DNA of 64,000 nucleotides, from contig NZ_CP041188.1 of assembly GCF_006517235.1 (NCBI RefSeq), positions 2,480,001-2,544,000 on the forward strand, written 5' to 3'. Shown here piece after piece: positions 25,382 through 47,091 of the stretch (its first letter is position 1; every line of letters starts with the position of its first letter). The DNA is from Pseudarthrobacter sp. NIBRBAC000502772. Lineage in GTDB: Bacteria; Actinomycetota; Actinomycetes; Actinomycetales; Micrococcaceae. The translations under genes and the position numbers were made by a program. The notes beneath the pieces are model-generated. The model ran no database searches. It had not been told where the DNA came from and worked only from the letters and a program-made list of their open reading frames with translations.

Positions 25382-25438
25382 GACATTGTCCTCATTGATC
25401 GTAGTCAGGAAGTCGTGAGTAAGAGATTACCGTTATGC

Positions 25439-25452
25439 GGACTGGTTGTCCA
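25439..25452. promoter_or_regulatory. Dyad motif upstream of the transketolase operon (copy 2)
   Basis: GGACTGGTTGTCCA: GGAC and GTCC arms spaced by five bases, 58 bases before the transketolase N start. It matches the consensus in its arms but less in the centre than the other copies. Confidence 0.4.
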
Positions 25453-25467
25453 TTGAATGAGAAGAAT

Positions 25468-27502: not shown

Positions 27503-28242
27503 TGGCCGCGAAACCGATCCGCGTCATGGCAAATAGCGCCGATCTGCTCAATGCGCTGGCGGACCGCGGTCCGCTGTCGGTGGTGGACATCGCCGATGAA
27601 CTATCGATGCCCCGTCCCAGCGTGTACCGGTTGCTGGATGCCCTCCAACACGTTGGCCTCATAGGGCTGCGGGACGATGGCCGTGCCCAGTTGGGAACTG
27701 AAATTCTGCACCTTGCCGACGCTGCTGTTGAGGGTATCCCGGAAGTACGCGCTGCCCGCCCGGCGATGGCCCGCCTGAACGAACAGACCGGACAGACGGT
27801 GTACCTTTGTGCCCTCCGCCATCAGATGGTTGCGTGCCTGGATTGGGTTAAGGGTACGAAGGTCACTCTCCTGCTCCTCAATCCCGGAGGAACCCTTCCA
27901 CCGCATGCGGGCGCGGCCTCACGTGCCATCCTGGCCTGGGATGAGCCGCTTCGATGGCATGTAACTTCGGCGGCCCCGTTGCAGAAACTCACCCCACATA
28001 CCCTCGTAACAGCACACCAGATTGAAGCAGATGCCGTGCTCACCCGCGACCGTGGCTTCAGTATCTCCGACGAGGACGTCACTATCGGAGTTGCTGCTTT
28101 GGGCGTGCCATTGTTTGACACCCGGGGCGAATTGCGTGGGGCGTTGTCCGTCGCCGGGCTCCGCGACGATATCGTCCCGCATCAGGACGAGTACGGGGCG
28201 TTGTTGAAGGAAGCTGCGGCGGAGATTTCGGCCGCGATCTAG
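27502..28242 (+). CDS. IclR-family transcriptional regulator 2
   Basis: A second IclR protein, 246 residues from GTG 27502, with winged helix (ADLLNALADRGPLSVVDIADELSMPRPSVYRLLDALQHVGLI) and IclR effector domain (MARLNEQTGQTVYLCALRHQMVACLDW; AGAASRAILAW; VAALGVPLFDTRGELRGALSVAG). The longer frame reading from 27283 is a shadow of the first IclR gene. Tandem overlapping IclR paralogues differ clearly in sequence, suggesting a heteromeric or two-signal switch (inference). Confidence 0.92.
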   Translation: MAAKPIRVMANSADLLNALADRGPLSVVDIADELSMPRPSVYRLLDALQHVGLIGLRDDGRAQLGTEILHLADAAVEGIPEVRAARPAMARLNEQTGQTVYLCALRHQMVACLDWVKGTKVTLLLLNPGGTLPPHAGAASRAILAWDEPLRWHVTSAAPLQKLTPHTLVTAHQIEADAVLTRDRGFSISDEDVTIGVAALGVPLFDTRGELRGALSVAGLRDDIVPHQDEYGALLKEAAAEISAAI

Positions 28243-29985: not shown

Positions 29986-30915
29986 TCAGCCAGCGTGTTG
30001 TGCAGAGTCAGAGGGGCTGGTTCGTGACTGGCGAATTGCGCTTTGGTAAGTCTGCTTGAGATGTTCAACTGTCGCGTCATAGTGCCTGCTGGCATAGGTT
30101 GCGTACAGGATGTCGATGACGAGCAACTGCCCCCACTTGCTCGTCACGGATTCCCCGTAGAGTTCCCCGCCACTGGGGACGGTGGCCGTATAGAGCACAA
30201 CGTCCGCGTAATTGCGCAGCGGGGAACCTTCGGCTCCGGTGATGGCAATGGTCGCCGCACCACGTTGCCGAGCGAGATGCATCGCATCGATGATCGGGGT
30301 GCTGCGCCCGGAGTCGCTGATGCCGATCAGCAAATCACCGGGTCCAATGATCGCTGCCAGCATGACCTGAATTGTGGTGTCGCGGTAAAGCATGCATTTC
30401 TTGCCGGCACGGGTGAAGCGCATGACTGCTTCCTCGGCGGCAATGCTGGACGACCCCATGCAGCTGAAAATCACGGTGTTCGACGCATCGATCAGGTCTA
30501 CAGCCCGCTGAATTGCCTCAACATCCTGCCGTTGACCGGTGCGCCGCAGGGACTGGACGCTGCTGCGCTCGACCTTTCCCGCGATCTCAGCGGCTGTGTC
30601 GCCGCGGTTGACGCCTTCGTATACGACCTCAGAATCTGCCGTGCGGGCACTCGTGGCAGCCTTGGAAATAAACGTGGCTTCGGCCAGGCCCAGCAGCATT
30701 GATTTGTAACCGTCAATGCCCAGTTCCTTGACGAATCGGGACACCGTGGACTCACCGACCCCGGCTGCCACAGCCAGTTCCGAGATGGTCATGGTTTGCG
30801 CTTGCTCCGGGGACTTCAGCACCGCTTCTGCGACCTGGCGGAGTGAAGGCGGGAGGTACGGCAGCCGCCCCGAGATCCGGTGCAGCAGTCCGCCGCCGGT
30901 GATGGTCTCCGTCAT
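29986..30915 (-). CDS. RpiR/MurR-family transcriptional regulator
   Basis: A 309-residue RpiR protein with an N-terminal HTH (YLPPSLRQVAEAVLKSPEQAQTMTISELAVAAGVGESTVSRFVKELGIDGYKSM) and a C-terminal SIS domain that binds phosphosugars (IFSCMGSSSIAAEEAVMRFTRAG; DLLIGISDSGRSTPIIDAMHLARQRGA). ATG 30915 has GGAG upstream. It is the last gene of the ten-gene minus-strand operon starting at 39739 and probably senses one of its phosphorylated intermediates. Its likely operators are the inverted repeats between that operon and glmS. Confidence 0.92.
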   Translation of the reverse strand: MTETITGGGLLHRISGRLPYLPPSLRQVAEAVLKSPEQAQTMTISELAVAAGVGESTVSRFVKELGIDGYKSMLLGLAEATFISKAATSARTADSEVVYEGVNRGDTAAEIAGKVERSSVQSLRRTGQRQDVEAIQRAVDLIDASNTVIFSCMGSSSIAAEEAVMRFTRAGKKCMLYRDTTIQVMLAAIIGPGDLLIGISDSGRSTPIIDAMHLARQRGAATIAITGAEGSPLRNYADVVLYTATVPSGGELYGESVTSKWGQLLVIDILYATYASRHYDATVEHLKQTYQSAIRQSRTSPSDSAQHAG

Positions 30916-30937
30916 ATTGCAGTCTCCGGTCTAGTCC

Positions 30938-31897
30938 CTAGGTGGCGAGGGCGTGAAGCAGGTTGTCCACAGCGGCCTGTGTGGCCCGGTCCACGCTTTC
31001 CTTAGTGTATCCACCGATGTGCGGCGTTGTGATGACCCTCGGGTGCGTAATCAGCCGGCTGGGTGCAGGGGGTTCGGAACTGAACACGTCGGTGGCCAGA
31101 TACTCGACCTGCCCGGAGTCGAGAGCCTGTAGCAGCGCCTCGTCGTCGATCAGGGATGCCCGCGCAGTGTTGATGACGCCGGTACCCCATTGGAGCAGCC
31201 GGATTGCCGCGGCTCCGAGAACCGGTTGCCCGGACGGCGGAGTGTGCAGCGATATGACGTGGCTCGATGACAAAACACGCTCCCGTGGTGCCCATGAGAA
31301 GTCGGGCGAAGGAGCGAACGATGTCACGGGATATTCGTCGAAGGCAATCACCTTCATGCCTAGTCCAAGCGCCATCGTCGCAACCCGCCGGCCGATCTGG
31401 CCGCATCCGATCAGACCAAGGACTTTCCCTGACACTTCATTGCCGGGCCGGCGGTTCCATTGGCCCGACTTCAGCTGGGCATCGTGCCAGGGGATGCTGC
31501 GGCTCCCGGCCAGAATCAGTGCGATGGTAAGTTCCGCTACTCCCTGGGAGTTGGCGCCTGGCGCGGTGAGTACGTTGATCCCCAGACGCTCGGCCGCTTC
31601 GACATCGATCGAATCCACGCCGACGCCGTTCCGGGAGATGGCTTTCAGCCGAGTAAGGTCCTCCAGTACCTGTCCGGAAAGGCGTTCGGTGCCCGCAAGG
31701 TAGCCGACGCACTGCGACACGCCGGCGCGGATCTGATCTTCATTGGGCACTGCACCGGGAGACGGATAAACCAGTTCGTATCCTGCGCGTTCCAGCTTCT
31801 GCAGGGCAGGGTGCCCCCCGTCTGACAAGGAGCGGGGGGTCACTGCAATGCGGCCGTTGCGGCCTGGCTCGGTGAGGTTCAGCGAAGCCATGGACAT
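30938..31897 (-). CDS. D-isomer 2-hydroxyacid dehydrogenase (SerA-like)
   Basis: A 319-residue NAD-dependent enzyme: KAISRNGVGVDSIDVEAAERLGINV, cofactor motif VLGLIGCGQIGRRVATMALGLGMKVIAFDEY, and catalytic His in TPHIGGYTKESVDRA with Arg in VINTARASLIDDEALL. It resembles phosphoglycerate/hydroxypyruvate dehydrogenases. ATG 31897 overlaps the upstream stop by one base (TGATG). Within the operon it would reduce or oxidise a 2-hydroxy acid formed in the pathway, for example after aldolase cleavage (inference). Confidence 0.88.
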   Translation of the reverse strand: MSMASLNLTEPGRNGRIAVTPRSLSDGGHPALQKLERAGYELVYPSPGAVPNEDQIRAGVSQCVGYLAGTERLSGQVLEDLTRLKAISRNGVGVDSIDVEAAERLGINVLTAPGANSQGVAELTIALILAGSRSIPWHDAQLKSGQWNRRPGNEVSGKVLGLIGCGQIGRRVATMALGLGMKVIAFDEYPVTSFAPSPDFSWAPRERVLSSSHVISLHTPPSGQPVLGAAAIRLLQWGTGVINTARASLIDDEALLQALDSGQVEYLATDVFSSEPPAPSRLITHPRVITTPHIGGYTKESVDRATQAAVDNLLHALAT

Positions 31898-32487
31898 CAG
31901 GCCTGCCAGCGTGGGTTGTCAATGAACTCCGCCTTGCCATCGCGCTCCACGCATAGTTTCCGGAAGCCCTTGGTTTCAATGGTTCCGTAGTCGTGTCCGG
32001 CGTGCCCGGGGAATGCGAAGAATGTGACCAGGGGCTCCGTGGCGGAGACGTTGATGCTTCGGTGGGCGTAGCGCCGCGGAACGTACACGGCCTGGCCGGG
32101 CGTGAATTCGGCAGCCTGCCAGTCACCTTCGGGGTTCTCCATCAGCATGTAACCGCGGCCGCTCAAGCAGTAGTAGATCTCCGCCGTGTCCAGGACTTCA
32201 TGGAAGTGACCCTTGGTCATGTGGTATTCGTCGCCTACTTTTCCCGGATAGGTGATGCTGGTCCCGTAGGCAACGTCGCCGCTGGTCGAGGGCACACCCA
32301 TGTCGAAGAACTCGTAGACAAGTGTGTCCTCCTGGGCGAGCTGGGCGTCCGCGGCTTCCTGGTCGGCGTACATATCAGCCATTGCTGACAGTCGGCGCTG
32401 CAGGGGGGCCTTGGTGGTTGACAGTCCGGTGGTGACATTGAAGTCGGTGACTACTGCTTTGACGGTGGTTGCGGGGGAGGCGTTCAT
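31897..32487 (-). CDS. Cupin-type phosphoglucose isomerase
   Basis: A 196-residue cupin of the cPGI family, which interconverts glucose-6-phosphate and fructose-6-phosphate with a bound metal. The motif GDEYHMTKGHFHEVLDTAEIYYCLSGRGYMLMEN supplies the metal ligands (HxH, Glu) and TKGHFH signature; the last His is in YVPRRYAHRSIN. The start overlaps the upstream AroE-like stop (ATGA). Archaea use this as their glycolytic isomerase, whereas actinobacterial copies occur in sugar operons; here it may act on a related ketose or aldose phosphate. Confidence 0.88.
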   Translation of the reverse strand: MNASPATTVKAVVTDFNVTTGLSTTKAPLQRRLSAMADMYADQEAADAQLAQEDTLVYEFFDMGVPSTSGDVAYGTSITYPGKVGDEYHMTKGHFHEVLDTAEIYYCLSGRGYMLMENPEGDWQAAEFTPGQAVYVPRRYAHRSINVSATEPLVTFFAFPGHAGHDYGTIETKGFRKLCVERDGKAEFIDNPRWQA

Positions 32488-33446
32488 GAGGGGTTCTCCT
32501 TCTGGGATACGGTGTGGGCAATGTCGGAAAGACGGTCGAAATCCGCTCCCTGGGTGGGTATGTCGATATCGAATACGTCGGCGATCACTCTGGTCCAGCC
32601 ATGAATGAAGTAGACCCAGCCGTCTTCGACCCGGACCTGGAGCTCCGGGTGTTGTGCACGGGCCTGATCCAGGAAGACGAGGTCTCCGCGGTAGTTGAAA
32701 TCCCAGGCAATGGCCCCCTGGGGGAAAATGACGCCGTCCGTCAAGGGCGAGCCCGGACGGTCCTTTCCCAAGCCCGTGGCGTTGATGATCACCGATCCAG
32801 GGGATGCGTTGGCGACGACTTCATCATTGGTCGATCCAGCTGTGGCCTGGACGTATGTGATCGGCAGCGCGCTCCCGAGCCGGGCGTGCATGGCCTGCAT
32901 TTCCTCGAGCCGCAGGTTCCGGCGATTGGTGACGATGATCTTTTTGGGTCCCGGCAGGCCGGCAGCGGCCCGCTTATGCAGATACAGTGTGAGGGCCAGC
33001 GAGGAGCCGCCCGCGCCGAGCAGCACCAGGTCCGCTGACGAGTCTTCCCAGTAGTTCTCGGGAAGGATGGCTTCCAGGGACAGGCCGCTGGTGACGGCGT
33101 CCATAGCATTGCCCCACAACAGTGGGGACCGTTTGCTGATGCTGCTGATTTCATGGAGAAGCTGTGCGTCAGGGCCAAATTCGTCGAAGAGGTCCCGGGC
33201 TGCGCTGACGATGTCCAGCTTGTGGGTCGTCACGAGTGCGCCGAGCGACATTGGGTCGGATTTTATGAATCCGACGACGTCCCGGTAGGCCTCCGGCGGA
33301 GCACCCAAAGGAAGGTCGATGCCCTTGAGGCTGGCGTCAAGGTCGAGCTCTTTTGCCCACGCCGGGAAAACTTTCATGATGGAGGATTTGTTTGTCGTGA
33401 CACCGATGAAGTACATCGTCGGTTCGACGGCGGGCAGTAGCGTCAC
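32484..33446 (-). CDS. AroE-like (shikimate/quinate dehydrogenase family) NAD(P) oxidoreductase
   Basis: A 320-residue protein in two domains. The substrate-domain pattern GALVTTHKLDIVSAARDLFDEF includes the catalytic Lys of shikimate dehydrogenases, and ADLVLLGAGGSSLALTLYLHKR is the nucleotide-binding turn; VIINATGLGKDRPGSPL is also typical. Length exceeds AroE (about 270-290) and the cofactor loop IIVTNRRNLRLEEM is NRR, usually suited to NADP. GTG 33446 has AGGAGCG. It is in a sugar operon, not with aromatic biosynthesis, so it probably handles a cyclic or open sugar derivative (inference). Confidence 0.83.
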   Translation of the reverse strand: MTLLPAVEPTMYFIGVTTNKSSIMKVFPAWAKELDLDASLKGIDLPLGAPPEAYRDVVGFIKSDPMSLGALVTTHKLDIVSAARDLFDEFGPDAQLLHEISSISKRSPLLWGNAMDAVTSGLSLEAILPENYWEDSSADLVLLGAGGSSLALTLYLHKRAAAGLPGPKKIIVTNRRNLRLEEMQAMHARLGSALPITYVQATAGSTNDEVVANASPGSVIINATGLGKDRPGSPLTDGVIFPQGAIAWDFNYRGDLVFLDQARAQHPELQVRVEDGWVYFIHGWTRVIADVFDIDIPTQGADFDRLSDIAHTVSQKENPS

Positions 33447-33455
33447 AGGGCGCTC

Positions 33456-34985
33456 CTAGGGATTGGTGGTAGATGGGGTGGCGGGTTCGTGCTCTTCCCA
33501 GTTGCAGGCGCGGGTGACGGCCTTTTGCCACCCGGCGTACAGGGCAGAGCGTTTTTCTTCAGACATGTCCGGGGTGAAGGCCCGGTCAAGTGCGAATGTG
33601 TCACGCAGTTCGTCTTTGCTCGCCCAGAACCCACAGGCAAGGCCCGCCAGAAGCGCGGCTCCGCGTGCCGTGGATTCGACTTGCCGGGGACGGAGGACCG
33701 GGACGTTGACCATGTCGGCCTGGAACTGCATGAGGAAGTTGTTCCGCACCGCACCGCCGTCGACACGGATTTCGGAGACGGGGAGTCCGGCATCGGCCTC
33801 CATGCAATTGATGACGTCCTTGATCTGGAACGCAATGGATTCGAGCGTGGCCCGGATGATGTGGTTGCGGCTCGAGCCACGGGTGAGTCCGAGGATCGCG
33901 CCGCGGGCATACGGGTCCCAGTACGGCGCGGCCAGGCCGGTGAACGCGGGAACAACGTATACCCCGCCGGAATCCTCCACCCGCATTGCGGCGTACTCAC
34001 TGTCGGCCGAATCATAGATGACCCGGAGCTCATCCCGTAGCCATTGGATGGACGCCGCGGCCACGAAAATCAGTCCTTCAAGCGCATATTCAACTTCGCC
34101 GTTGATTCCCCAGGCAATGGTGGTCAGCATTCCGTTCGCCGAGCTGACTGGTTTGTCGCCGGTATTCATGACCAGACTGGCGCCGGTGCCGTAAGTCGCC
34201 TTGACCATGCCGCGGTCGAAGCACGCCTGCCCGAACAGAGCCGCCTGCTGGTCTCCGATTGCCGAGGCGACCGGGATATGGGCGCCCGCAAAGATTCCGT
34301 CGCAGGTGTGTCCGTAGACTTCGCTGCTTGGCCGGACGTCGGGGAGCATTAGACGGGGTACGCCCAGCTCACCGAGGAGTTTGTCGTCCCAGTCCAGGGT
34401 GTTGATGTCGAAGAGCATCGTCCTCGCCGCGTTGGAGTAATCGGTGACATGCGCGGCCCCGGCAGTCAGGTTCCAAATGATCCAGCTGTCGATGGTGCCG
34501 AAGCACAGCTCGCCGGCCTCCGCACGGGCCCGTGCACCGGGGACGTTGTCCAGGATCCACGCGATTTTGGTGCCGGAGAAGTAGGCGTCGATGACCAGCC
34601 CGGTCGTGGACCGGACATGCTCCTCCAGACCCTTCTCTTTGAGGCCGTCGCATACTCCGGCCGTGCGCCTGTCCTGCCACACGATGGCGTTCATGATGGG
34701 CTTGCCCGTGTCCCTGTCCCAGACGACTGTGGTTTCACGCTGGTTCGTGACGCCGATCGCACCGATGTCGTGCGGATCGATCCCGGCTCCCTGAAGGGCA
34801 CGCCGTGCCACGGCCAGTTGTGTATTCCAGATTTCCATGGGATCGTGTTCCACCCACCCCGGCTTGGGGTAGATCTGGGTGAACTCCTGGCTCGCTTCGC
34901 CTACGATCTCTACCTTTGAGTCATAGATGATTGCCCGGATACCGGTTGTCCCGGCATCCAGCGCCATGATGTACTTCGTTGTCAT
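33456..34985 (-). CDS. FGGY-family kinase, glycerol kinase-like
   Basis: A 509-residue FGGY kinase with strong glycerol-kinase features: [104 protein letters not shown] and [18 protein letters not shown]. It therefore may phosphorylate glycerol, but FGGY kinases in such operons (erythritol, threitol, xylitol) share these motifs. The context of polyol dehydrogenases, not glpF or glpD, favours a different polyol. ATG 34985 lacks a strong ribosome binding site. Confidence 0.87.
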
Positions 34986-35030
34986 CGCCGGTCCATTTCT
35001 GTGTGCGTTGCGGATTCGAGGTGCAGCGCT

Positions 35031-36080
35031 TTAGTTCGATTCGAAGAGGATCATGGCCTTCATCCCTTGGCCTGATCCGGCGTAGTCCATGGCCTTTTCG
35101 ATGTCATCCAGTGTGAACGTCTGGCTGATCAGTGGCGAGAGGTCCAGCCTGCCCTCCCCGACGAGGCTGAGGGCTGATGCATAATCGGAATTGCTGGAAC
35201 CCGTTGTACCGGTCAGAGTCAAGCCCTGGTAGTGGACCCGGTTGGTGTCAAGGGCAACAGGTTGCGCTTTGCCGAGTCCGGCAAAGAAATTGACTCTTCC
35301 GTGCGTTGCCAGCAGGTCGACGGCCTGAGCCTGTACCTCGGGCTTGGAGACGCAGGTCAGGGCAACATCAACTCCCAGACCACCGGTTTCCTCGGCCACG
35401 ACAGTGGCCAGGTCGCGTTCGGTGAGGTTGACCAGCACATCGGCGCCGAGAGTACCCGCGAAGTCGAGCCGCGGTTGCCGGTTGTTCGAAACGATGACTT
35501 TCCGGGCGCCGTAGAGCTTTGCCAGCATGACGTGACAGGCCCCGATGGGTCCGGCACCCATGATCAGCACGGTGGAGTCCGGTCGGACATCAAGTTTGCT
35601 GACCGCGTTGTAGCAGCACGAGAGTGGTTCGACCAGTGCGGCCTCGGCATAGCCCACAGTCTCCGGCAGATGGAACACGTTGCCTCGGTTGAGGGCAAAG
35701 CGGGGTATCCGGACGTACTCCTGGAAGCCCCCGTCCATGGTGATGCCGAAGGCTTCATAGGAGGGGCACATGTTGTTCAGCCCAACGAGGCAGTTGGGGC
35801 ACGTTCCGCAGCCGACGTTGGGCGTGACACTGACGCGGTCTCCGACGGCGTAACCAGTGACCTCGCTGCCCGCCTCCACAATCTCGCCGGCAAACTCGTG
35901 CCCAAGAACACGCGGAGTCCCTTCCGGAAGCTTGAAATGCCCGTTGGCGGCAATCCGACGGTCTGTGCCGCAGATCGAAGCGGCCCGGACTCTGATGATG
36001 ATGTCTCCCGCGTCGGCTGTCGGTCTGGGGATGTCATCGACCGTGATATTTCCGGGGGAGTGAAGCCGTGCGGCTTTCAT
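35031..36080 (-). CDS. Zinc-dependent polyol/sugar-phosphate dehydrogenase (MDR family)
   Basis: A 349-residue MDR enzyme: catalytic zinc site AASICGTDRRIAANGHFKLPEG and VLGHEFAGEI, structural zinc lobe GCGTCPNCLVGLNNMC, Glu in ALVEPLSCCYNAV, cofactor motif TVLIMGAGPIGACHVMLAKLYGARKVIVSNN. ATG 36080 overlaps the previous stop (ATGA) and has AGGAAGAGG upstream; the longer frame to 36293 is a shadow of the neighbouring gene. Ends GMKAMILF as in galactitol-1-phosphate/threonine dehydrogenase relatives. Confidence 0.88.
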   Translation of the reverse strand: MKAARLHSPGNITVDDIPRPTADAGDIIIRVRAASICGTDRRIAANGHFKLPEGTPRVLGHEFAGEIVEAGSEVTGYAVGDRVSVTPNVGCGTCPNCLVGLNNMCPSYEAFGITMDGGFQEYVRIPRFALNRGNVFHLPETVGYAEAALVEPLSCCYNAVSKLDVRPDSTVLIMGAGPIGACHVMLAKLYGARKVIVSNNRQPRLDFAGTLGADVLVNLTERDLATVVAEETGGLGVDVALTCVSKPEVQAQAVDLLATHGRVNFFAGLGKAQPVALDTNRVHYQGLTLTGTTGSSNSDYASALSLVGEGRLDLSPLISQTFTLDDIEKAMDYAGSGQGMKAMILFESN

Positions 36081-37144
36081 GATGTGCGTACCTCTTCCTG
36101 CGCCTCGGCGGCCACGGCGAAGAGCACCTTGTTGTACCAGATGGAGCGGTCCGTAAGACGGCGGAACACGGCCGGTGCTTCGCCCAGGGGGCGGACGTGG
36201 CTGATCAGTTCGTCCACGTGCAGGTCGCGGCCGAGGTGGGCGATGACCATGTCCCATTCGCTGCGGCCCTTCGGGGTGACCTTGGCGTTCCACGTCCCGT
36301 ACAGTCTCAGTTCCCGCCGAAGTAGGGACGAGACTGTGTCCTTGGCCAGGTGCAGGTCGCCACTTAGGTCACCGAGCAGGACGACTTGTCCCTGGACCGA
36401 GGCTGATTCAATGGCCTGGATGAGCGCTTTCGGGTTGCCGGTGGCCTCGACAACGATCTGCGGGCCCCAGCCGTCCGTGGCTGCTCGGGCAAGATCTGCG
36501 GTGTCGCCGGTCTTGGCGTCAATGGTTTCGAAACCGAGCCGCGACATGGTCTCGAGCTTTCGGTCGTCGATGTCCGCCACCAAGACGCGGGAGCAACCAA
36601 GGATTCGCAGCCATTGAGCGGCCAGGGCGCCGATCGGGCCAGCCCCAATCACGAGGGCGGTGGCATGGGTTGGGATCTGCACTTTAAGCATTGCGTGCAG
36701 GGCCACCCCGGCGGGCTCGACCATTGCCGCGTGCGTCAGGGGCATGTCGTTCGGAACCCGGAAAATGCTTTGTTCGGGAACCCACATCCGTTCGGACATT
36801 GCCCCGTGACGTCGAGACCCGAAGTAGTCGTATCCGGTGCCGAGAGCGTATTCGCCGATTTCGGACATGGGATCCCCGTGCCTGTGCAGCAAAGGGAAGA
36901 CGGCCGCCCGGTCCCCGGCGCTCAGGTGGGGGCTGTCGGGGGCTTCCTCGACGATGGCCGAAAATTCATGTCCGAGCACCAGAGGGTAATGATAGGCCTT
37001 GCCGTGTCCGTAGCGCAGGACGTCTGATCCGCAGACGCCGACGGCGCCGACACGGATCAGGACAGGGTTTTCGCCGACCGGTTCCGGCTCCGGAATGTCC
37101 GCATATTCAAGGTCGTTGAGTCCGTTGAGGATTGCAGCCTTCAT
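36077..37144 (-). CDS. GatD-like alcohol dehydrogenase lacking the structural zinc cysteines
   Basis: A 355-residue MDR enzyme. Catalytic zinc ligands are kept (VGVCGSDVLRYGHGKAYHYPLVLGHEFSAIVEE; MVEPAGVALHAM), as is the cofactor motif ALVIGAGPIGALAAQWLRILGCSRVLVADID. The structural lobe is unusual: where relatives have four cysteines it reads FPLLHRHGDPMSEIGEYALGTGYDYFG, with no Cys. It resembles galactitol-1-phosphate 5-dehydrogenase in start (MKAAILNGLNDLEY) and end. ATG 37144 is 6 bases after the SDR stop. Confidence 0.85.
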   Translation of the reverse strand: MKAAILNGLNDLEYADIPEPEPVGENPVLIRVGAVGVCGSDVLRYGHGKAYHYPLVLGHEFSAIVEEAPDSPHLSAGDRAAVFPLLHRHGDPMSEIGEYALGTGYDYFGSRRHGAMSERMWVPEQSIFRVPNDMPLTHAAMVEPAGVALHAMLKVQIPTHATALVIGAGPIGALAAQWLRILGCSRVLVADIDDRKLETMSRLGFETIDAKTGDTADLARAATDGWGPQIVVEATGNPKALIQAIESASVQGQVVLLGDLSGDLHLAKDTVSSLLRRELRLYGTWNAKVTPKGRSEWDMVIAHLGRDLHVDELISHVRPLGEAPAVFRRLTDRSIWYNKVLFAVAAEAQEEVRTS

Positions 37145-37150
37145 GGCAGC

Positions 37151-37990
37151 TTAGACCTCCATGCCGTAGCGGTGGGCCTTGTGCGTGGGATAAAGCGCGA
37201 TCTGGGGGATGGTGACGTCCGGGGTGCGGGTGGCAACGAACAGGGTGATTTCGGCAACGTTGTCCACTTCGATGCAGCTGGCGTGGATACCTTCCTCGAT
37301 TTCCTTCTTGTCGAGCCAGCCGTCGATGTAGGCCGGGACGTCGCCGTCGTACAGACCCTTGTCGATGATCTCGGTCATCGGAGTCTTGACATGGGAGGGG
37401 TTGATGACAGTGACGCCGATCTTCTTGTCTTTGCCCTCCAGGAGGATGTTCTTGCTGAACCCCATCAGACCGTGCTTTGAGGCGCGGTAGGGGCTGTGGC
37501 CCGGGCCGGAGGCAACACGGGCGGAGGACGATCCCATGTTGATGATGCGGCCGCCGTTTTCCTGCTTCTCCATGATCCGGAAGGCCTCCCTGCACATCAG
37601 GAAGACAGCGGTCAGGTTCGGAGTCATGGTCTTGTTCCACTCATCCAGGGTGACGTCGACGACGGGCGGCGCCAGTGAGTCACGACCGGCGCTGTTGACG
37701 ATCAGGTCTACACTTCCCCAGTTGGTTTTGGCCCACGCGAACAGGTCGACTACGGACTGTTCGTCGGTGACGTCGGCGAGAATGGAATGGACGTCCCCGC
37801 GGCCGTAGCCGCGGATGCTTGCGGTGACCTTCTCGAGTCGTTCTTCGTCGATGTCGACCAGGAGGACCTTGCTTTCGTTGGCTGCGAAGATCCGGGCGAC
37901 GGCTTCGCCGATTCCGGAAGCTGCGCCGCTGATGATGGCGACTTTGCCGGCCAGGGCGACTCCGGTCTGGGGGACGTATGTTTCGCTCAT
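37151..37990 (-). CDS. Short-chain dehydrogenase/reductase
   Basis: A 279-residue SDR with KVAIISGAASGIGEAVAR, DVTDEQSVVD, NSAG, catalytic Ser in INMGSSSARVASG, and YRASK (SPYRASKHGLMGF), then TVINPSHVKTPMTE. ATG 37990 has AGGAG upstream. The C-terminal extension (TPDVTIPQIALYPTHKAHRYGMEV) is longer than in minimal SDRs. It is third in the RpiR-controlled operon and likely oxidises a sugar or polyol intermediate. Confidence 0.9.
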   Translation of the reverse strand: MSETYVPQTGVALAGKVAIISGAASGIGEAVARIFAANESKVLLVDIDEERLEKVTASIRGYGRGDVHSILADVTDEQSVVDLFAWAKTNWGSVDLIVNSAGRDSLAPPVVDVTLDEWNKTMTPNLTAVFLMCREAFRIMEKQENGGRIINMGSSSARVASGPGHSPYRASKHGLMGFSKNILLEGKDKKIGVTVINPSHVKTPMTEIIDKGLYDGDVPAYIDGWLDKKEIEEGIHASCIEVDNVAEITLFVATRTPDVTIPQIALYPTHKAHRYGMEV

Positions 37991-38045
37991 TGTGATTTCT
38001 CCTGTTGGTTTTTGAAACTGTGGTGGTGAGGTTTGGGGGGCCTGC

Positions 38046-38714
38046 TTAGGCCCGGGTTCCCGCCGTGTGGGAGCGAGGGGAGCTGGCGGCGAGTTCAGCT
38101 GCTTGGCCTGCCTTGGTGGTGATTTCCTCCCAGCGCCGGCCGGTTACGGCATCCTTGGTGGCGATCCAGGATCCGCCGCAGGCGGCCACGGATGGCTGGG
38201 CCAACCACGCTGAGACGGTGTCTGCGGTGATCCCGCCGGTGGGCATGAACGACACGTCCGGGTACGGGGCGCTGAGGGCCTTGACCAGGGGTATGCCACC
38301 GATGGCCTCGGCCGGGAAGAGCTTGAGTAAACGCAGCCCAAGGGACCGCGCCGCCTCGATTTCTGACGGCGAGGTGACGCCTGGAATGATAGGGATGGAG
38401 CGTTGCCTGGCCCGCTCCACGACCGAGGCGTTGAGCCCCGGGGAGACGATGAAGTGTGCACCGGCGTCTGCTGCTGCGTCGACGTCTTCTTCGGACAGGA
38501 TGGTCCCGGCCCCGACCAGCAGTCCTGGGACGTTGTCCACCATGCGGGCGATGGCGTCGGCCGCGACGGGGGTTCTGAAGGTGATCTCCGCGACGGGAAG
38601 GCCCGCGTCGACAAGTGTCTTGCCCAGCGGAATTGCGTCGTCTGCATATTCGATTTCGATGACGGGCACTATCGCGAGTTCGCGAAGTCTCTGGAGCAGG
38701 TCCTCGGCGTTCAT
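38046..38714 (-). CDS. KDPG/KHG aldolase-family protein
   Basis: A 222-residue class I aldolase, which cleaves 2-keto-3-deoxy-6-phosphogluconate-type acids into pyruvate and an aldehyde phosphate. Motifs are VPVIEIEYADDAIPL, the catalytic Glu region VAEITFRTPVAADAI, GAGTILSEEDVDAAADAGAHFIVSPG, and Schiff-base Lys in LRLLKLFPAEAIGG, with phosphate-binding FMPTGGI and GSWIATKD. ATG 38714 overlaps the lactonase stop (ATGA). It implies that the operon makes a 2-keto-3-deoxy acid phosphate. Confidence 0.92.
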   Translation of the reverse strand: MNAEDLLQRLRELAIVPVIEIEYADDAIPLGKTLVDAGLPVAEITFRTPVAADAIARMVDNVPGLLVGAGTILSEEDVDAAADAGAHFIVSPGLNASVVERARQRSIPIIPGVTSPSEIEAARSLGLRLLKLFPAEAIGGIPLVKALSAPYPDVSFMPTGGITADTVSAWLAQPSVAACGGSWIATKDAVTGRRWEEITTKAGQAAELAASSPRSHTAGTRA

Positions 38715-39739
38715 GCCGTTTGCCTTCTTTCGTTCTGCGGGATGTTGGCTGTCCGGGCGGGGGTGATGTGGTAGGCCTGTCCGAGGGACGGGAGCGTCCA
38801 CTGCACGTCGCCGGCTAAGCGCGTGAGCTCCTGTGCCGCGACGCCGGGGTCTACTGTGTTGAAGTCAAAGAGGCCGAAGTGGTGCCCGACGACGGCCGGG
38901 ATGTCCGCCGCCGCGCACAGTTCGAGGGCTTCATTTACCGTGAAGTTCCCTGGCACCCCGTTCTGAAGCCGGTGGCTGTCCCTGCCGTTGATGGGGAGCA
39001 GCGCAAGGTCGACCCGCATGTTGCGGAGGAGTTCTGCCTGGCCCTGGTAGGGGACGCAGTCGCCAGAGTGGTATATCTTCACGCCTGCGATGTCGATGAT
39101 GTAGCCCAGGAAAACGGAATCCCCGTTGATGTCGGTTTCCAGATCTTCGTGGGCTGCCGGGACGACGGTGACGCTGATGTCGCTGGCTAGTTCCACGCTG
39201 CTGCCGGCTGTGACCGGAATCAACAGCTCGACGGGGATGTGCCGGTCCATGGCCACCTGGGTTCGTGCCCTGGGGGCAAGGAAGAAAGGACGGTTCCTCG
39301 TCTGCAGGGCCCGGACGGTCTCCGGATCCAAATGGTCAGTATGGGCGTGGCTGTGAAGGACAGCCTGTATGCCCACCATCTGTTCCGGGTCCACAGGGAC
39401 TGGATGAAGGCGAGTGTGCGGGAAGATGGTCCCCGCGTATTTGGTGGCGAGACTGTCCGAGAGATAGGGATCAATGAGTATCCGGCGTCCGTCGTGTTCC
39501 AGAGCAAATCCGGCCTGGCCCAACCACCAGAACCTGACGTCCCCCGATGGAGCGGCGGCAGCGGTGAGGTAGTCTGCAGCCGGTCCGTCGGGAATTAGGC
39601 GGACCAGAGGGAAGTTCACAGGGTCACCATCCGCTTCGGAGGGAACGGTCGGTTCGTCCACGTCGATCACGCCGCCATCGGAGGCTGCCGCGTGTGCGAC
39701 GGTGACACGGTGGCGCTGTTCCCCGGAGAAGTTTGCCAC
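38711..39739 (-). CDS. UlaG-type metallo-beta-lactamase-fold hydrolase (sugar lactonase candidate)
   Basis: An MBL-fold protein with the metal motif VLHSHAHTDHLD (HxHxDH), preceded by WWLGQAGFALEHDGRRILIDPYLSDSLA; later ligands are VVPAAHED, YHSGDCVPYQG and VVGHHFGLFDFN. This matches the UlaG (L-ascorbate-6-phosphate lactonase) group. The start is uncertain: GTG 39739 (342 residues) or GTG 39670 (319 residues); longer frames run into the glmS promoter region. First gene of the ten-gene operon. A lactone-hydrolysing role fits with KDPG-type aldolase downstream. Confidence 0.85.
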   Translation of the reverse strand: MANFSGEQRHRVTVAHAAASDGGVIDVDEPTVPSEADGDPVNFPLVRLIPDGPAADYLTAAAAPSGDVRFWWLGQAGFALEHDGRRILIDPYLSDSLATKYAGTIFPHTRLHPVPVDPEQMVGIQAVLHSHAHTDHLDPETVRALQTRNRPFFLAPRARTQVAMDRHIPVELLIPVTAGSSVELASDISVTVVPAAHEDLETDINGDSVFLGYIIDIAGVKIYHSGDCVPYQGQAELLRNMRVDLALLPINGRDSHRLQNGVPGNFTVNEALELCAAADIPAVVGHHFGLFDFNTVDPGVAAQELTRLAGDVQWTLPSLGQAYHITPARTANIPQNERRQTA

Positions 39740-39849
39740 AAAGCCGTGACACGCCGTTGTGTGCGATTGAACATTTTCGGTGCCTTTCTGGTGTCCAGTA
39801 AGCGGTCGCCGTTGCCATTGGCGTTGCTCTTGATCACACAGTAGCAAGA

Positions 39850-39889
39850 ATTTTCCGACAAGAAAATAGTTTGGGAAGAAAATTCCCAA
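39850..39889. promoter_or_regulatory. Two inverted repeats, candidate RpiR operators
   Basis: ATTTTC-CGACAA-GAAAAT (39850-39867) and TTGGGAA-GAAAA-TTCCCAA (39871-39889) lie side by side between the lactonase operon and glmS, ending 19 bases before the glmS start. Their placement suits control of both divergent transcripts by the operon's own RpiR protein. Binding is inferred. Confidence 0.55.
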
Positions 39890-39908
39890 CAGATGTAAGC
39901 TGGGGGCC

Positions 39909-41804
39909 ATGTGTGGAATCGTGGGATATGTCGGAAGCGTCAACCAAGACCAGGGCAATATCGGAAATCGTGCCCTGAACGTCGTCCTCGGTGGCTTGAG
40001 CCGCCTTGAATACAGGGGGTACGACTCGGCGGGCGTGGCCGTGCTCGCTGACCGCGGGATCAGCTCCCGAAAGAAAGCTGGAAAGTTAGCGAATCTTGAA
40101 AACCTTCTCCGCTCCAACCCGCTGCCCCCCGCGCAGGTAGCCATAGGCCATACGCGGTGGGCCACGCACGGGGCGCCGACGGACGCGAACGCCCATCCGC
40201 ACCTTGCTGATGATGGCCGATTGGCAGTCATTCACAACGGGATCATCGAAAATTCCGGCCCGTTGCGGAGCTGCTTGACGGCCCGTGGCCACGTGTTTCT
40301 CTCGGAGACCGACACCGAAGTCGCAGCTGCACTACTGGCTGATGTCTACCTCACCCTGGGTGGGGATCAGGCTGGCGGTGATGCTCTGGCGGCAGCCATG
40401 CGCCGTACCTGCGCGGAGCTGGAGGGGTCCTTCACGCTTCTTGCGGTACATAGCAATCATCCCGGACTCATCGTCGCGGCGCGGAGGAATTCCCCGCTCG
40501 TGGTTGGCCGGGGTGAACGCGAAAATTTTCTCGGATCGGATGTGTCGGCGTTCATAGACTCAACCCGCCGCGCCATTGAGCTCGGGCAGGATCAGGTTGT
40601 CAGCCTCACGGCTGACGAAGTGACCATCACTGATTTCCACGGCAAACGTGCTGCCGGTAAGGAATTCGTCGTCGACTGGGACGCCAGTTCGGCCACGAAG
40701 GATGGCCATTCATCGTTCATGGCGAAGGAGATCCAGGAGCAGCCAGAAGCGGTCCGCCGCACTCTCCGAGGGAGGATCGGCGCAGACGGGACGCTGTCTC
40801 TGGGCCAGCTTGGAATCAGTGACGCAGCTCTGGCCGGCGTCCGGAAGATCATCGTCGTGGCCTGCGGTACGGCCTCCTATGCCGGGCAGATTGCGAAATA
40901 CGCCATAGAGCGCTGGTCCAGGATTCCGGTTGAAGTCGACTTTGCCCACGAGTTCCGTTACCGCTGTCCGATGCTTGATGACAGGACGCTGGTGATAGCC
41001 ATATCGCAGTCCGGCGAGACGATGGACACGCTGATGGCCGTGCGGTACGCCCTTGAACAAGGAGCCAAGGTGCTCGCCATCTGCAACACCGTGGGAGCGA
41101 CTATTCCGCGTGAATCCGACGGTGTGTTGTACACGCATGCAGGTCCTGAGGTGGCCGTGGCCTCCACTAAGGCGTTCCTTACCCAGGTGACAGCCGCGCT
41201 CCTGCTCGCTCTCTATCTTGCCCAGTTGCGGGGGACCGGGGACCCGCTGGAAATTTCCGGGGCAATCCTCGAACTAGGAGGCATGCCGGAAAAGATCCAA
41301 CGGGCACTGGCGGCGGAGGAACAGATCGCCGCGCTCGCCGAATCGCTGGCCGATACGACGGCGGTACTCTTCATCGGTAGGCATGTCGGGCACCCGGTGG
41401 CCATGGAGGGGGCCCTGAAGCTGAAGGAGTTGGCGTACATTCACGCCGAAGGCTTTGCGGCCGGCGAGCTTAAGCATGGTCCCATTGCCCTCATCGAGCC
41501 CGGACAGCCGGTCATCGTCATTGTGCCCTCACTCGTGAGGAGTCGGACCCTTCACGCGAAGATGATGTCGACGATCCAGGAGATCAAGGCGCGCGGCGGT
41601 CGCGTCATCAGCGTCTGTGAGGAAGGGGACGCAGTGACTGGGGCGTGGGCGGATGTGGTCGTGGCCGTGCCGGCATCAAACCCGCTCCTGGCGCCACTAC
41701 TAACCACCATCCCGCTGCAAATTTTTGCTGCCAGGCTGGCGGACGCGAAGGGGCTGGACATTGACCAGCCTCGGAACCTCGCCAAGTCAGTCACCGTAGA
41801 ATAG
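39909..41804 (+). CDS. glmS: Glutamine-fructose-6-phosphate aminotransferase (isomerising)
   Basis: A 631-residue GlmS, making glucosamine-6-phosphate from fructose-6-phosphate and glutamine. The glutaminase domain starts MCGIVGYVG with the nucleophile Cys2, followed by LEYRGYDSAGVAV, HTRWATHG, and DGRLAVIHNGIIEN. Two SIS domains carry VVACGTASYAGQIAKYAIERW, AISQSGETMDTLMAVR, ASTKAFLTQVTAAL and ELKHGPIALIEPGQPVIVIVPS. Its placement divergent from a catabolic RpiR operon with shared operators suggests a second, inducible copy, not the housekeeping one (inference). Confidence 0.93.
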   Translation: MCGIVGYVGSVNQDQGNIGNRALNVVLGGLSRLEYRGYDSAGVAVLADRGISSRKKAGKLANLENLLRSNPLPPAQVAIGHTRWATHGAPTDANAHPHLADDGRLAVIHNGIIENSGPLRSCLTARGHVFLSETDTEVAAALLADVYLTLGGDQAGGDALAAAMRRTCAELEGSFTLLAVHSNHPGLIVAARRNSPLVVGRGERENFLGSDVSAFIDSTRRAIELGQDQVVSLTADEVTITDFHGKRAAGKEFVVDWDASSATKDGHSSFMAKEIQEQPEAVRRTLRGRIGADGTLSLGQLGISDAALAGVRKIIVVACGTASYAGQIAKYAIERWSRIPVEVDFAHEFRYRCPMLDDRTLVIAISQSGETMDTLMAVRYALEQGAKVLAICNTVGATIPRESDGVLYTHAGPEVAVASTKAFLTQVTAALLLALYLAQLRGTGDPLEISGAILELGGMPEKIQRALAAEEQIAALAESLADTTAVLFIGRHVGHPVAMEGALKLKELAYIHAEGFAAGELKHGPIALIEPGQPVIVIVPSLVRSRTLHAKMMSTIQEIKARGGRVISVCEEGDAVTGAWADVVVAVPASNPLLAPLLTTIPLQIFAARLADAKGLDIDQPRNLAKSVTVE

Positions 41805-41893: not shown

Positions 41894-41975
41894 TGCCACT
41901 GCAGCACCAACTGGTCCCGGCCGCATAGATCCTGCCGCCAGAGCGCCTGCAGTGCACATTCAGAGAGGGCCCACC

Positions 41976-43142
41976 ATGTTTCAACGGAGAAACCGCTACC
42001 GGGGGAGCGCGGCAGTAGCCGTGCTTGCCTGCCTTGTCGCACTGACCACGGCCTGCGGTCCCGCCCCGGCCAGCCAGACGTCACAGGCAGACTCCGAGGC
42101 GTCAGCGGCGTTCACGGCAAAAGTCACCGCCGACGTCGCAGCTGCAACCGCACCGCAGACCACCACGACCAACCCCGTCCCAGCCAGCGCATCGCTCTCC
42201 AACGGGCCCAAGAAGATCGTGATCATTCCTTGTTCCATGGCCGTGGAAGGGTGCGCGCGGCCGGCCCGTTCAACGCAGGAAGCCTCGCGGCTGCTTGGCT
42301 GGGACGCGAGCATCGACGACCCCGCGAGCGACAGCACCAAGATCTCCGCGGCCATCCAGCGGGCAGTCTCCCGGAAAGTCGATGCCATTGCGTTGACGTC
42401 CATCGACGCCGCTGCAGTTCAGGGTGACATCAAGTCGGCCAGGGATGCAGGCATCGCCGTCACCTGCAACATGTGCGGCAACAAGGATGACCTTTACCAG
42501 TCGCTGATTCCAGCTCTGGACGCAAACAACAAAGCAGGATACCTCTTGGGGGAGTTCGCGTTCCTTGAAGCGCGCAAGCGTTTCAATTCAGCACCGAAAT
42601 TCATCGTCCTGACCGATCCGGAATTCGACACCGTGAAGGCGCGCGTGAGCGGCCTCAAACAGTTCATTGAGGACTGCAAAGCTGCCGGAGCAGGTTGCGA
42701 GCAGGTAGCCGAGAGCTCGTTCCTGGCAGGTGAAATCAGCACCGTCGCGCCAGGGCGCGTTGCCCAGTTGGCCCGCAGCAACCCGCGCTACAACGTGCTG
42801 TTCGCAGGATTCGACGCGGCCATGCTGTTCTTCTCCCAGGGGCTACAGCAGGCAGGGCTGGCTGATTCCAAGAAAGCTTTCGGAATTTCGGTGGACGCCG
42901 ACGTGGCCAATACCGAGATGATCCGCAAGGGGGGTTTCCAGGCGGCGTCCATCGGATTCGCCTTCGGCCGTGCAGGTTACGGCCAGGTGGACAATCTCAA
43001 CAGGATCTTCAGTGGCCAGAAGCCGCAGGACCAGGGCATCACCGGCAAGCTCGTTACAGCGGAGAACGCCCCGGCTTCCGGCGGCTGGGATGGAGACTTC
43101 GACGGAGTCGCCCTTTACAAGGGACTGTGGAAGGTCGGCTGA
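41976..43142 (+). CDS. Sugar ABC transporter substrate-binding lipoprotein (RbsB/PBP type 1), module 1
   Basis: A 388-residue extracellular lipoprotein: basic start MFQRRNRYRGSAAV, hydrophobic stretch, and lipobox LTTACG with the lipidated Cys. A Ala/Thr-rich linker precedes a type 1 periplasmic-binding domain (KKIVIIPCSMAVEGC; DAIALTSIDAAAVQGDIKSARDAGIAVTCNMCG; FKRFNSAPKF... and NVLFAGFDAAMLFFSQGLQQAG). The extra cysteines (PCSMAVEGC, TCNMCG) are unusual and could form disulphides. ATG 41976 has GAGAGG. It starts an SBP-ATPase-permease-SDR operon. Confidence 0.87.
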   Translation: MFQRRNRYRGSAAVAVLACLVALTTACGPAPASQTSQADSEASAAFTAKVTADVAAATAPQTTTTNPVPASASLSNGPKKIVIIPCSMAVEGCARPARSTQEASRLLGWDASIDDPASDSTKISAAIQRAVSRKVDAIALTSIDAAAVQGDIKSARDAGIAVTCNMCGNKDDLYQSLIPALDANNKAGYLLGEFAFLEARKRFNSAPKFIVLTDPEFDTVKARVSGLKQFIEDCKAAGAGCEQVAESSFLAGEISTVAPGRVAQLARSNPRYNVLFAGFDAAMLFFSQGLQQAGLADSKKAFGISVDADVANTEMIRKGGFQAASIGFAFGRAGYGQVDNLNRIFSGQKPQDQGITGKLVTAENAPASGGWDGDFDGVALYKGLWKVG

Positions 43143-43143: not shown

Positions 43144-44694
43144 GTGAACACCGCCGATTCGCCCCGCACTGTCCTGACGGTGCGGGGCCTGTCCAAGACC
43201 TTCGTCGGACAAAAGGCTCTCGATACGGTGGCCCTGGAGCTGCGCGCGGGGGAAGTACACGCGCTCCTGGGCCAGAACGGCTGCGGAAAGTCGACGCTTA
43301 TCAAATGCCTTGCAGGGTTCCATCATCCCGACGAAGGCGCAGAAATGACCCTCGACGGCGTTCCCGTCACGTTGCCTTTCGAGCCCGCCCAAGCGGCGGC
43401 AATGGGTCTGGTGTTCGTGCATCAGGACCTTGGACTCATTCCGAACCTGTCCATCACCGAGAACTTCGAAGCCTCAAGGAGCTACGGATCGGGGTTGTTT
43501 TCGAGGATCCGCTGGTCGCGAATGCGGGAAAACACCGTTGCGGAACTCGCCCGCTTGGGGCACGCCGACCTCGACCCCAACACCCCCGTGGGGCGCTTGC
43601 CGATCGCGCAACAGACCATCGTGGCGATAGCCAGGGCGCTAAGCTCAGCCGGTGAAGGGGCCAAGGTGCTGGTGCTGGATGAGCCCACGGCTGCTTTGCC
43701 CGACTCGGAAGCTGCGCTGCTCTTCGCCGCCGTCCGGAAAGTGGTTGAAAGCGGCGTGGCTGTGCTCTATGTGACCCATAAACTCGAAGAGCTGGCCTCG
43801 TTCGCGGACCGGGCCACGGTCCTGCGGGATGGCCGGAATATTGAAACCATCGGCATCGCTGACACGGATCGCAAGAGCCTTGTCCGCCTGATCGTGGGGC
43901 GGGACGTCGAGGCTTTGCCCCTCGCCCGTGAGCTGGGGATGCCAGGACGTGAGCTCATGGACGTCCGGGGACTAACCGGAAAACGACTGAAGGATGTCTC
44001 ATTCACGATCCGTGCCGGCGAAATCATCGGCGTCGCCGGGATGCTCGGATCCGGCCGGAGTGAACTCGCCCGTATACTCTTTGGCGCCCAGGAACCCGTC
44101 CGTGGCACCATCACAGTCAAAGGCAGTGAATGCCGGTTCCGGACGCCGAGGGACGCGGTGGCGCGGAAGATCGCACTCATCCCAGAGAACCGTCGTCGGG
44201 ACGGCGGAGTGCTGGACATGAGCGTCGGGGAGAACCTCACCATTACGTCCATCGACCGGTTCTGGCGGCGAGTCAGGCTCTCAACCGGAACGGAACGAAA
44301 GTGGATAGCTCAAAAGATCGGCGAGTACGACGTCAGACCGGCGTCCTCCCAAAGGCTTTTCAAGGTGCTGTCCGGGGGAAACCAGCAAAAAGTGGTCATC
44401 GCCAAATGGCTGGAAACCAGTCCCGACATTGTCATCTTCGACGAACCCGTCCAAGGTGTGGACATCGGCGCCCGCGCGGAGATATTCGACCTCATCAACC
44501 GCGCGGCTGAACGGGGCGCCGCGGTCGTGCTGATCTCTTCCGAGATCGAACAGATGATTGCCCTCAGTCATCGGATCCTCATTCTCCGGCATGGACGCAT
44601 CGTTGCCGAGGAATCAACCGCCGGCCTTACCGCCGGCAAGGTCACGCAGTCGATGTACTTCGACGGCGAACGAACTAAGGAAACAACGTCATGA
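43144..44694 (+). CDS. Sugar ABC transporter ATP-binding protein (RbsA type, two domains), module 1
   Basis: A 516-residue duplicated ATPase. The first half has Walker A GQNGCGKSTLIKCLAGF and Walker B VLVLDEPTAALPDSEA; the second has a degenerate Walker A (GMLGSGRSELARILFG), signature LSGGNQQKVVIAKWL and DIVIFDEPVQGVDIGARAEI. This asymmetry is normal for RbsA/MglA. GTG 43144 is one base after the lipoprotein stop; a longer frame from 42970 is a shadow. Its stop overlaps the permease ATG (ATGA). Confidence 0.92.
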   Translation: MNTADSPRTVLTVRGLSKTFVGQKALDTVALELRAGEVHALLGQNGCGKSTLIKCLAGFHHPDEGAEMTLDGVPVTLPFEPAQAAAMGLVFVHQDLGLIPNLSITENFEASRSYGSGLFSRIRWSRMRENTVAELARLGHADLDPNTPVGRLPIAQQTIVAIARALSSAGEGAKVLVLDEPTAALPDSEAALLFAAVRKVVESGVAVLYVTHKLEELASFADRATVLRDGRNIETIGIADTDRKSLVRLIVGRDVEALPLARELGMPGRELMDVRGLTGKRLKDVSFTIRAGEIIGVAGMLGSGRSELARILFGAQEPVRGTITVKGSECRFRTPRDAVARKIALIPENRRRDGGVLDMSVGENLTITSIDRFWRRVRLSTGTERKWIAQKIGEYDVRPASSQRLFKVLSGGNQQKVVIAKWLETSPDIVIFDEPVQGVDIGARAEIFDLINRAAERGAAVVLISSEIEQMIALSHRILILRHGRIVAEESTAGLTAGKVTQSMYFDGERTKETTS

Positions 44695-45724: not shown

Positions 45725-45776
45725 GCGCTGCATCAAGACCTGAATAAGCCACCACAACAACAAGAAGGCGAAACAC

Positions 45777-46810: not shown

Positions 46811-47091
46811 TCGACGCTGTAATTCTGCTTCGTCGCGCACCGGAGTTCCGGTGACAGCCCGGGAGCCCAGCCGACGTGTTCAACCGGCAGCACGTCATGG
46901 AGCTCGTGCACGCATCCGAAGTGGCCACTGCCGACCACGAGGACGAGAAATGTCAGCATGTCCAAATTCATGCCCCCGCGGCTAATTCCCATTGGAGAAC
47001 CCGTCTATGGGGAGCAGGAGATCGAGCGTCCACACAGTGGCTTCGCCGAATATTTCGCTACGTCGGATTGACTGGAAGAGGAAGAGTGAAC

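Follow-up and report, generated by a model that had tools for sequence, protein, structure and literature searches.

Among the described routes that bring sugars and polyols into central metabolism, the Entner-Doudoroff pathway (Zwf-Pgl-Edd-Eda) takes in a hexose 6-phosphate, proceeds through a lactone and its lactonase, and releases pyruvate and glyceraldehyde 3-phosphate (G3P) by an Eda-type aldolase. The Thermotoga inositol pathway (IolG-IolM-IolN-IolO) includes ring opening by a hydrolase, and the altritol route ends in fructose 6-phosphate (F6P). The tetritol routes end in erythrose 4-phosphate according to PMC12780249. The glycerol kinase (GlpK) group is described in PMC3245297 as remarkably unchanged in evolution, with signature residues that include Phe270, a contact to glycerol. 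Here we describe a ten-gene operon with its own RpiR-family regulator in a 64,000-nucleotide stretch (positions 2480001-2544000 of contig NZ_CP041188.1, hereafter the window) of the 4.80 Mb genome of Pseudarthrobacter sp. NIBRBAC000502772 (GCF_006517235.1). The operon very probably serves the catabolism of a phosphorylated sugar; the order of reactions that we propose for it is tentative and falls somewhat short of an even chance. As a preliminary description of the window had stated, no standard pathway was found that uses this set of genes, and a search limited to open-licence papers found no published account of such an operon.

The operon comprises ten consecutive open reading frames on the minus strand, from the start of the UlaG-like gene at 39619 to the end of the RpiR gene at 29986 (window coordinates throughout), and a glmS gene lies divergently at 39909-41804. 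In the order of the operon the ten genes encode a UlaG-like hydrolase of the metallo-beta-lactamase fold, predicted to be a phospho-lactonase (LacB, 38711-39619, 302 residues; PF12706, E 9e-30, scored from a start 18 bases further in than the one used here, which was set by comparison with the related locus L008); an Eda-type aldolase for 2-keto-3-deoxy-6-phosphogluconate (KDPG) and 2-keto-4-hydroxyglutarate (KHG) (38046-38714; PF01081, TIGR01182), which overlaps lacB by 4 bases; a short-chain dehydrogenase (SDR, 37151-37990; PF00106); two zinc-type medium-chain dehydrogenases (MDR), namely the polyol-phosphate dehydrogenase-like MDR1 (36077-37144) and, with a 4-base overlap, MDR2 (35031-36080); a kinase of the FGGY family that is a GlpK paralog with Ser at the Phe270 position (33456-34985; TIGR01311); an oxidoreductase of the AroE fold, predicted to be a (phospho)sugar dehydrogenase (32484-33446, assigned by fold match); a cupin phosphoglucose isomerase homologue (cPGI, 31897-32487; PF06560); a D-2-hydroxyacid dehydrogenase resembling 3-phosphoglycerate dehydrogenase (SerA-like, 30938-31897; PF02826/PF00389); and the RpiR-family regulator (29986-30915), which carries the HTH_6 (PF01418) and SIS (PF01380) domains and whose best NCBIfam model is HexR (145.9 bits, cut-off 296). 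The SDR is 69-97% identical in clusters of the same type, other loci giving only SDR matches of 26-36%, and its best solved relative scores 117 bits. MDR1 is closest in NCBIfam to galactitol-1-phosphate 5-dehydrogenase (PRK10309, 191.7 bits, below the cut-off of 550) and matches PDB 4a2c at E 3e-45; MDR2 is closest to IolM (NF041097, 228 bits, below the cut-off of 450), with Tdh models at 223-225 bits. The preliminary description had joined all ten genes by overlaps of 1-4 bases; with corrected starts this stands for 4 of the 9 junctions, the other five being gaps of 55, 6, 45, 9 and 22 bases. Its unit of ten reading frames ending in an RpiR gene was confirmed, and its family labels hold overall, except that the glycerol site of the GlpK-like kinase is changed and the protein called AroE-like lacks a Pfam match.

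An alignment of the AroE-like protein was scanned against one genome per species, and the best 80 of at least 573 loci were taken, each with up to 10 kb of contig on either side. Co-occurrence was counted as presence by tblastn in one stretch, adjacency not being required, and because many of the 80 loci are short metagenome contigs these counts are probably underestimates. Five additional loci (L134-L138) come from the same genus, L135 being taken as covering the contig of L009. The complete set of ten genes is found again, in unchanged order and on one strand, in 5 of the 80 loci, from Arthrobacter (L008), Paenarthrobacter (L009), a Leifsonia metagenome assembly (L012), a Microbispora metagenome assembly (L016) and Streptomyces (L017); L011 and L014 have nine genes in that order and an RpiR homologue that is divergent, and six alphaproteobacterial loci carry a rearranged version of all ten. 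The ten genes thus form one operon with its own RpiR gene, and the neighbourhoods were not seen to split into separate known operons, the outcome that the preliminary description had weighed against a single unit. A core does recur with other entry genes: the AroE-like, cPGI, SerA-like and LacB genes share one stretch in 41 of the 80 loci, alphaproteobacteria, spirochaetes and planctomycetes among them, and are joined by the aldolase gene in 31, while the entry enzymes elsewhere include XylB-like kinases and Gfo/Idh dehydrogenases in some clusters and SDRs, a glycerol-dehydrogenase-like enzyme and DeoC in others. The core was recorded in at least four phyla (Actinomycetota, Pseudomonadota, spirochaetes and planctomycetes), and the substrate is therefore probably common in nature. 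Within the genus, 6 of 121 genomes examined have an AroE-like gene, counting the genome of the window, and three of these genes show only 50-55% identity; two of the other five (L134 and L135) have all ten genes and three (L136-L138) lack the full set, so that the operon is an accessory island. Public records label two of its families otherwise, the AroE-like protein as shikimate dehydrogenase and the kinase as glycerol kinase.

The AroE-like protein matched no Pfam family at E 0.001 and reaches at best 35.7 bits against the shikimate dehydrogenase models of NCBIfam (cut-off 413). Its predicted model (predicted local distance difference test score, pLDDT, 90.3) has the fold of shikimate/quinate dehydrogenase and of Gluconobacter 5-ketofructose reductase, at 14-23% identity to the structural matches, and Ser16, Asn86 and Gln244, which we take to be the shikimate-site residues, are not kept. 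An ordinary shikimate dehydrogenase homologue that Pfam recognises was also seen within a polyol importer/dehydrogenase cluster (L089:1749-2555). The cPGI scores 101.7 bits against PF06560 (cut-off 20.7) and 169.7 bits against PDB 4lta, a solved glucose-6-phosphate isomerase; H94, H96, E103 and H142, presumably the metal ligands, are retained in 93% or more of 66 sequences. It shares the cupin family and these residues with the archaeal phosphoglucose isomerase and differs from it in being bacterial and in lying within a catabolic operon. The AlphaFold model of LacB (pLDDT 89.7) finds 3bv6 and UlaG (2wyl/2wym) as its best Foldseek matches, with template modelling scores (query) of 0.69-0.74, and conservation of its His/Asp metal-type positions across 52 loci is 93% or higher; against the UlaG L-ascorbate-6-phosphate lactonase model (PRK11709) it scores 46.7 bits, below the cut-off of 306. 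The UlaG-like protein is longer (434-447 residues) in the alphaproteobacterial loci L089 (14458-15801), L023, L024, L027, L028, L033 and L042; the additional segment was searched in L089, where it corresponds to a low-molecular-weight phosphatase domain (PF01451). In L038 and L045 the edge of the same cluster carries a second AroE-like gene with a second UlaG-like gene next to it, and this doubling suggests that the two enzymes act as a pair. A protein of the SMP-30/gluconolactonase type (family f49; L061:4356-5609, also L040 and L044) occurs in planctomycete-type clusters, where it hints at lactone chemistry. The SerA-like protein scores 214 bits against TIGR01327 (cut-off 454), and in the PDB it is closest to 3-phosphoglycerate dehydrogenases, whose reaction is the oxidation of a phosphorylated 2-hydroxyacid. 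The aldolase is over the TIGR01182 cut-off (251 bits against 156) and ranks first among the genome's Eda-like matches; the Schiff-base Lys and Glu motif is present in all 42 loci with a match, and PTGG[IV] in 36 of them.

The kinase passes the GlpK equivalog model TIGR01311 (713.6 bits, cut-off 590.35), and is 50% identical to the canonical GlpK of the same genome; of the five GlpK signature residues, four (Arg83, Glu84, Tyr135 and Asp245) have their motifs retained. The GlpKs encoded in actinobacterial and alphaproteobacterial operons fall into a single clade (support 100/99) apart from the canonical GlpKs, a copy of which is also present in the genome of the window and in all 8 operon genomes examined. 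At the Phe270 position, the 26 operon rows (20 distinct sequences) have Ser in 18, Thr in 7, Ala in 1 and Phe in none, with Ser in the protein of the window, and Phe is kept in 12 of 12 canonical rows; three further alignment columns also differ between the two groups, to which we attach no interpretation. From the loss of Phe270 in the operon clade we infer a substrate larger than glycerol. A clade of kinases without this glycerol-contacting Phe contrasts with the constancy reported for the GlpK group in PMC3245297.

We propose that the genes form an inducible catabolic operon, controlled by its own RpiR, whose substrate would be a hexitol or ketohexose not directly usable by glycolysis. The SDR, MDR1 and MDR2 (in some genomes also SDR2, a further short-chain dehydrogenase) and the GlpK-type kinase would convert the substrate to a hexulose 6-phosphate, which the cPGI would isomerise to an aldohexose 6-phosphate. 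With NADP, the AroE-fold enzyme would oxidise this to a 6-phospho-lactone, the UlaG-like enzyme would open the lactone, the phosphoglycerate-dehydrogenase-like enzyme would oxidise C2, and the Eda-type aldolase would cleave the 2-keto acid into G3P and a C3 acid. Kinase, isomerase, C1 oxidation, lactonase, C2 oxidation and aldolase would thereby each be accounted for, with every core enzyme used once. The step of each enzyme, the cofactors, the order of the steps, the regulation by RpiR and the substrate are all deductions. The chain has no dehydratase, and on chemical grounds a 3-deoxy sugar therefore fits it best: 3-deoxyfructose derived from 3-deoxyglucosone, for example, would give KDPG and then pyruvate. 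Such a route would resemble the Entner-Doudoroff pathway in its entry compound, its lactone and lactonase, its aldolase and its products; it would differ in that the ten genes lack the Zwf, Pgl and Edd families and have AroE-fold and UlaG-fold enzymes instead, with a 2-hydroxyacid dehydrogenase in the place of the dehydratase. Classical Entner-Doudoroff use of the aldolase was rejected for this genome, in which no Edd over the cut-off was found (the sole IlvD/Edd-family protein scores 247 bits, the edd cut-off being 708). Among the 30 operon genomes searched, of the 42 with an aldolase in the locus, 16 lack an Edd over the cut-off and 14 have one, and a tblastn search of 85 neighbourhoods with one Edd-family protein, from Marinovum, matched only the locus of Marinovum itself.

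Taken as a whole, the reading of the operon as a widespread pathway that resembles the Entner-Doudoroff route, lacks a dehydratase and serves 3-deoxyhexoses (such as 3-deoxyglucosone/3-deoxyfructose from Maillard chemistry), with a new FGGY kinase specificity that would have arisen inside the GlpK group, an AroE-fold hexose-6-phosphate dehydrogenase replacing Zwf and an inducible second GlmS that would shield amino-sugar synthesis from F6P analogues, is improbable. Several observations weigh against the proposed chain of reactions. An Edd over the cut-off is present in 14 of the 30 operon genomes, some of the 16 negative ones are incomplete metagenome assemblies, and that search covered Edd only, enolase-superfamily dehydratases not having been searched for. 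The aldolase was not found in the locus stretch of 38 of the 80 loci, and the oxidoreductases beyond the core exceed the needs of a simple 3-deoxyfructose route. Psicose-3-epimerase-like proteins, which are TIM barrels, occur in some alphaproteobacterial clusters (131.7 bits, cut-off 300), and they favour a substrate with a C3 hydroxyl. For the AroE-like enzyme at least one other step is conceivable besides the one assigned, its sugar-acting fold relative being by name a keto-sugar reductase and not a C1 dehydrogenase, and the operon GlpK is, by sequence, still over the glycerol-kinase cut-off with the other glycerol contacts kept. If the deoxy-sugar reading were true, bacteria would possess a direct route from dehydrated, Maillard-type sugars to KDPG.

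The same order of reactions could instead act on an ordinary rare hexitol or ketohexose of the altritol, allitol or iditol series, the aldolase cleaving a non-deoxy 2-keto-aldonate 6-phosphate into hydroxypyruvate and G3P or, in a variant, the SerA-like enzyme itself reducing the hydroxypyruvate; together we consider these two versions unlikely. The several polyol-type dehydrogenases speak for them, as do the C3-epimerase-like proteins just mentioned and an alphaproteobacterial binding protein (L066:7525-8532) close to PDB 4ry9 (388 bits), whose ligand we take to be D-talitol. Matches of the SerA-like protein extend to hydroxypyruvate/glyoxylate reductase models, with scores far under the cut-offs (GhrB, 109 bits against 492). 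The KDPG-type motifs of the aldolase point the other way, as does the preference of Eda enzymes for pyruvate, and neither of the two TIM-barrel neighbours tested matched a hydroxypyruvate isomerase model at E 1e-35. The D-altritol/galactitol and tetritol pathways resemble the operon in their type of entry enzymes and their Rbs-type importers; unlike the route predicted here, the altritol and tetritol routes have no lactone and no Eda-type aldolase. A cyclitol pathway, in which IolG-like or SDR and IolM-like enzymes would carry out the oxidation, the UlaG-like enzyme would open the ring as happens in the Thermotoga pathway, and phosphorylation and cleavage would follow, would suit the IolM likeness of MDR2, the Gfo/Idh protein in spirochaete/planctomycete clusters (276 bits to inositol 2-dehydrogenase in the one tested) and the inositol monophosphatase family protein in Shinella/Rhizobium-type clusters. 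Both scores are below the equivalog cut-offs (IolM 450, IolG 355), and for that reason the inositol pathway is kept only as a rival, a decidedly improbable one; the ten genes of the window include no Gfo/Idh, the cupin belongs to the PGI family with its conserved metal ligands and not to IolB, and a kinase gene adjoins the AroE-like gene in many clusters. To our knowledge, the Thermotoga pathway has no counterparts of the kinase, PGI, SerA-like and AroE-like enzymes.

Use of glycerol from a glycoside, in which the kinase would act on glycerol freed from a glycosyl-glycerol and the other enzymes on the sugar half, would explain the TIGR01311 score and the four retained signature motifs. It is very unlikely in view of the missing Phe270 in all 26 operon rows, the canonical GlpK elsewhere in the same genomes, the XylB-like kinases of other clusters (two tested, both below the XylB cut-off) and the lack of a glycosidase among the ten genes. 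Ranked last, and hardly probable at all, is an amino-sugar pathway or a rerouting of F6P through glmS, both of which the preliminary description had raised. In its favour are the glmS gene opposite the operon in four Arthrobacter-group genomes and the operator-like sites shared with it; GlmS runs in the biosynthetic direction, and glmS was not found in the stretches covered for 78 of the 80 loci. It is placed last because no amino-sugar catabolic gene is among the annotated proteins: neither the annotated window genes nor those recurrent neighbour families of which a representative was examined include an amino-sugar deaminase, deacetylase or aminotransferase. An amino-sugar substrate is accordingly not supported; of F6P rerouting there is left at most an indirect form, by way of a protective GlmS as considered below.

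The divergent glmS (39909-41804, plus strand; TIGR01135, 732 bits against 418, full length over model positions 1-607) is a second copy. It also lies opposite the operon in L008, L009, L134 and L135, at 66-75% identity, and among the 80 contig loci only L008 and L009 have it, the stretches of the other 78 (up to 10 kb a side) being negative. Each of the Arthrobacter-group operon genomes G000, G001, G016 and G079 has two GlmS over the cut-off, one of them beside the operon, and the same-genus genomes without the operon, G009 and G010, have one each; Streptomyces G002 has the operon and two GlmS, neither on the operon contig. The four operon-side copies form a clade of their own (support 97/100). 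In the gap between glmS and the operon, an alignment of four genomes shows a conserved GGAA-N5-TTCC palindrome (site 1, TTGGGAAGAAAATTCCCAA, 39871-39889) and a second conserved copy over a -10-like box (site 2, GGAAAATTCTTGCTA, 39842-39856, minus strand). A pattern built from the conserved sites has 1 match in the window against 0.10 expected, and among 85 loci and the window the stringent palindrome forms are confined to two sites, one in the window and one in L009, both in the glmS-operon region. The looser GGAA-N5-TTCC has further occurrences, at window positions 13096 and 55022 and, outside the regulatory region, in L134, L135 and L136; related palindromes precede the operons of L011, L014 and L045, and no clear relative was seen in the chosen upstream stretches of L012, L016, L017 and L036. 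The IolR site, GGAA-N6-TTCC, resembles the palindrome. No Rfam match to a riboswitch or glmS ribozyme was obtained at E 0.1 in 26000-52000 of the window, and sigma-70 promoter and terminator scans gave results not above those for shuffled sequences. We infer that the conserved palindromes are candidate RpiR operators, and glmS is probably co-regulated with the operon because both the divergent second copy and the palindromes are conserved; the pairing with glmS noted in the preliminary description is conserved in four Arthrobacter-group genomes. The second GlmS may have a protective role, maintaining the supply of glucosamine 6-phosphate while F6P-like phosphates build up.

Between lacB and the control region lies a deletion scar (39648-39789, minus strand), recognised from three blocks colinear with L008, L134 and L135. 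Still present in the window are the regulatory region, the ribosome-binding site and the first codons of a binding-protein gene; the sequence then jumps about 2.6 kb to some 90 bases from the later part of the ATPase gene, which are followed by lacB with a second, smaller gap; the importer belonging to the operon has therefore been deleted in this strain. Downstream of glmS on the plus strand is a second importer, consisting of an Rbs-type sugar-binding lipoprotein (41970-43142; PF13407), an Rbs-type ATP-binding cassette (ABC) ATPase (43180-44694, identified by sequence) and an Rbs-type permease with a frame broken near its 3' end (44691-45596; PF02653), together with SDR2 (45777-46571; PF00106), whose relatives (cluster f20) occur in 10 of the 80 loci. 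Homologues lie within the Agromyces operon L045 at 54-64% identity (54% for the binding protein, 57% for the ATPase). In a three-frame translation against the L045 permease, the permease frame breaks near 45.49 kb and the remainder continues in another frame (44691-45760), which reflects either a pathway that is losing uptake in this strain or a sequencing error. The pntAB transhydrogenase genes (46876-50120) follow SDR2 in the same direction, and they possibly balance NADPH from the pathway. On the other side of the operon, at 21637-26499 (minus strand) and 26687-28242 (plus strand), is a neighbouring sugar operon with an SDR, a PfkB-type kinase below the cut-off, a split transketolase, an IolM-like MDR and two regulators that by eye look like the IclR type.

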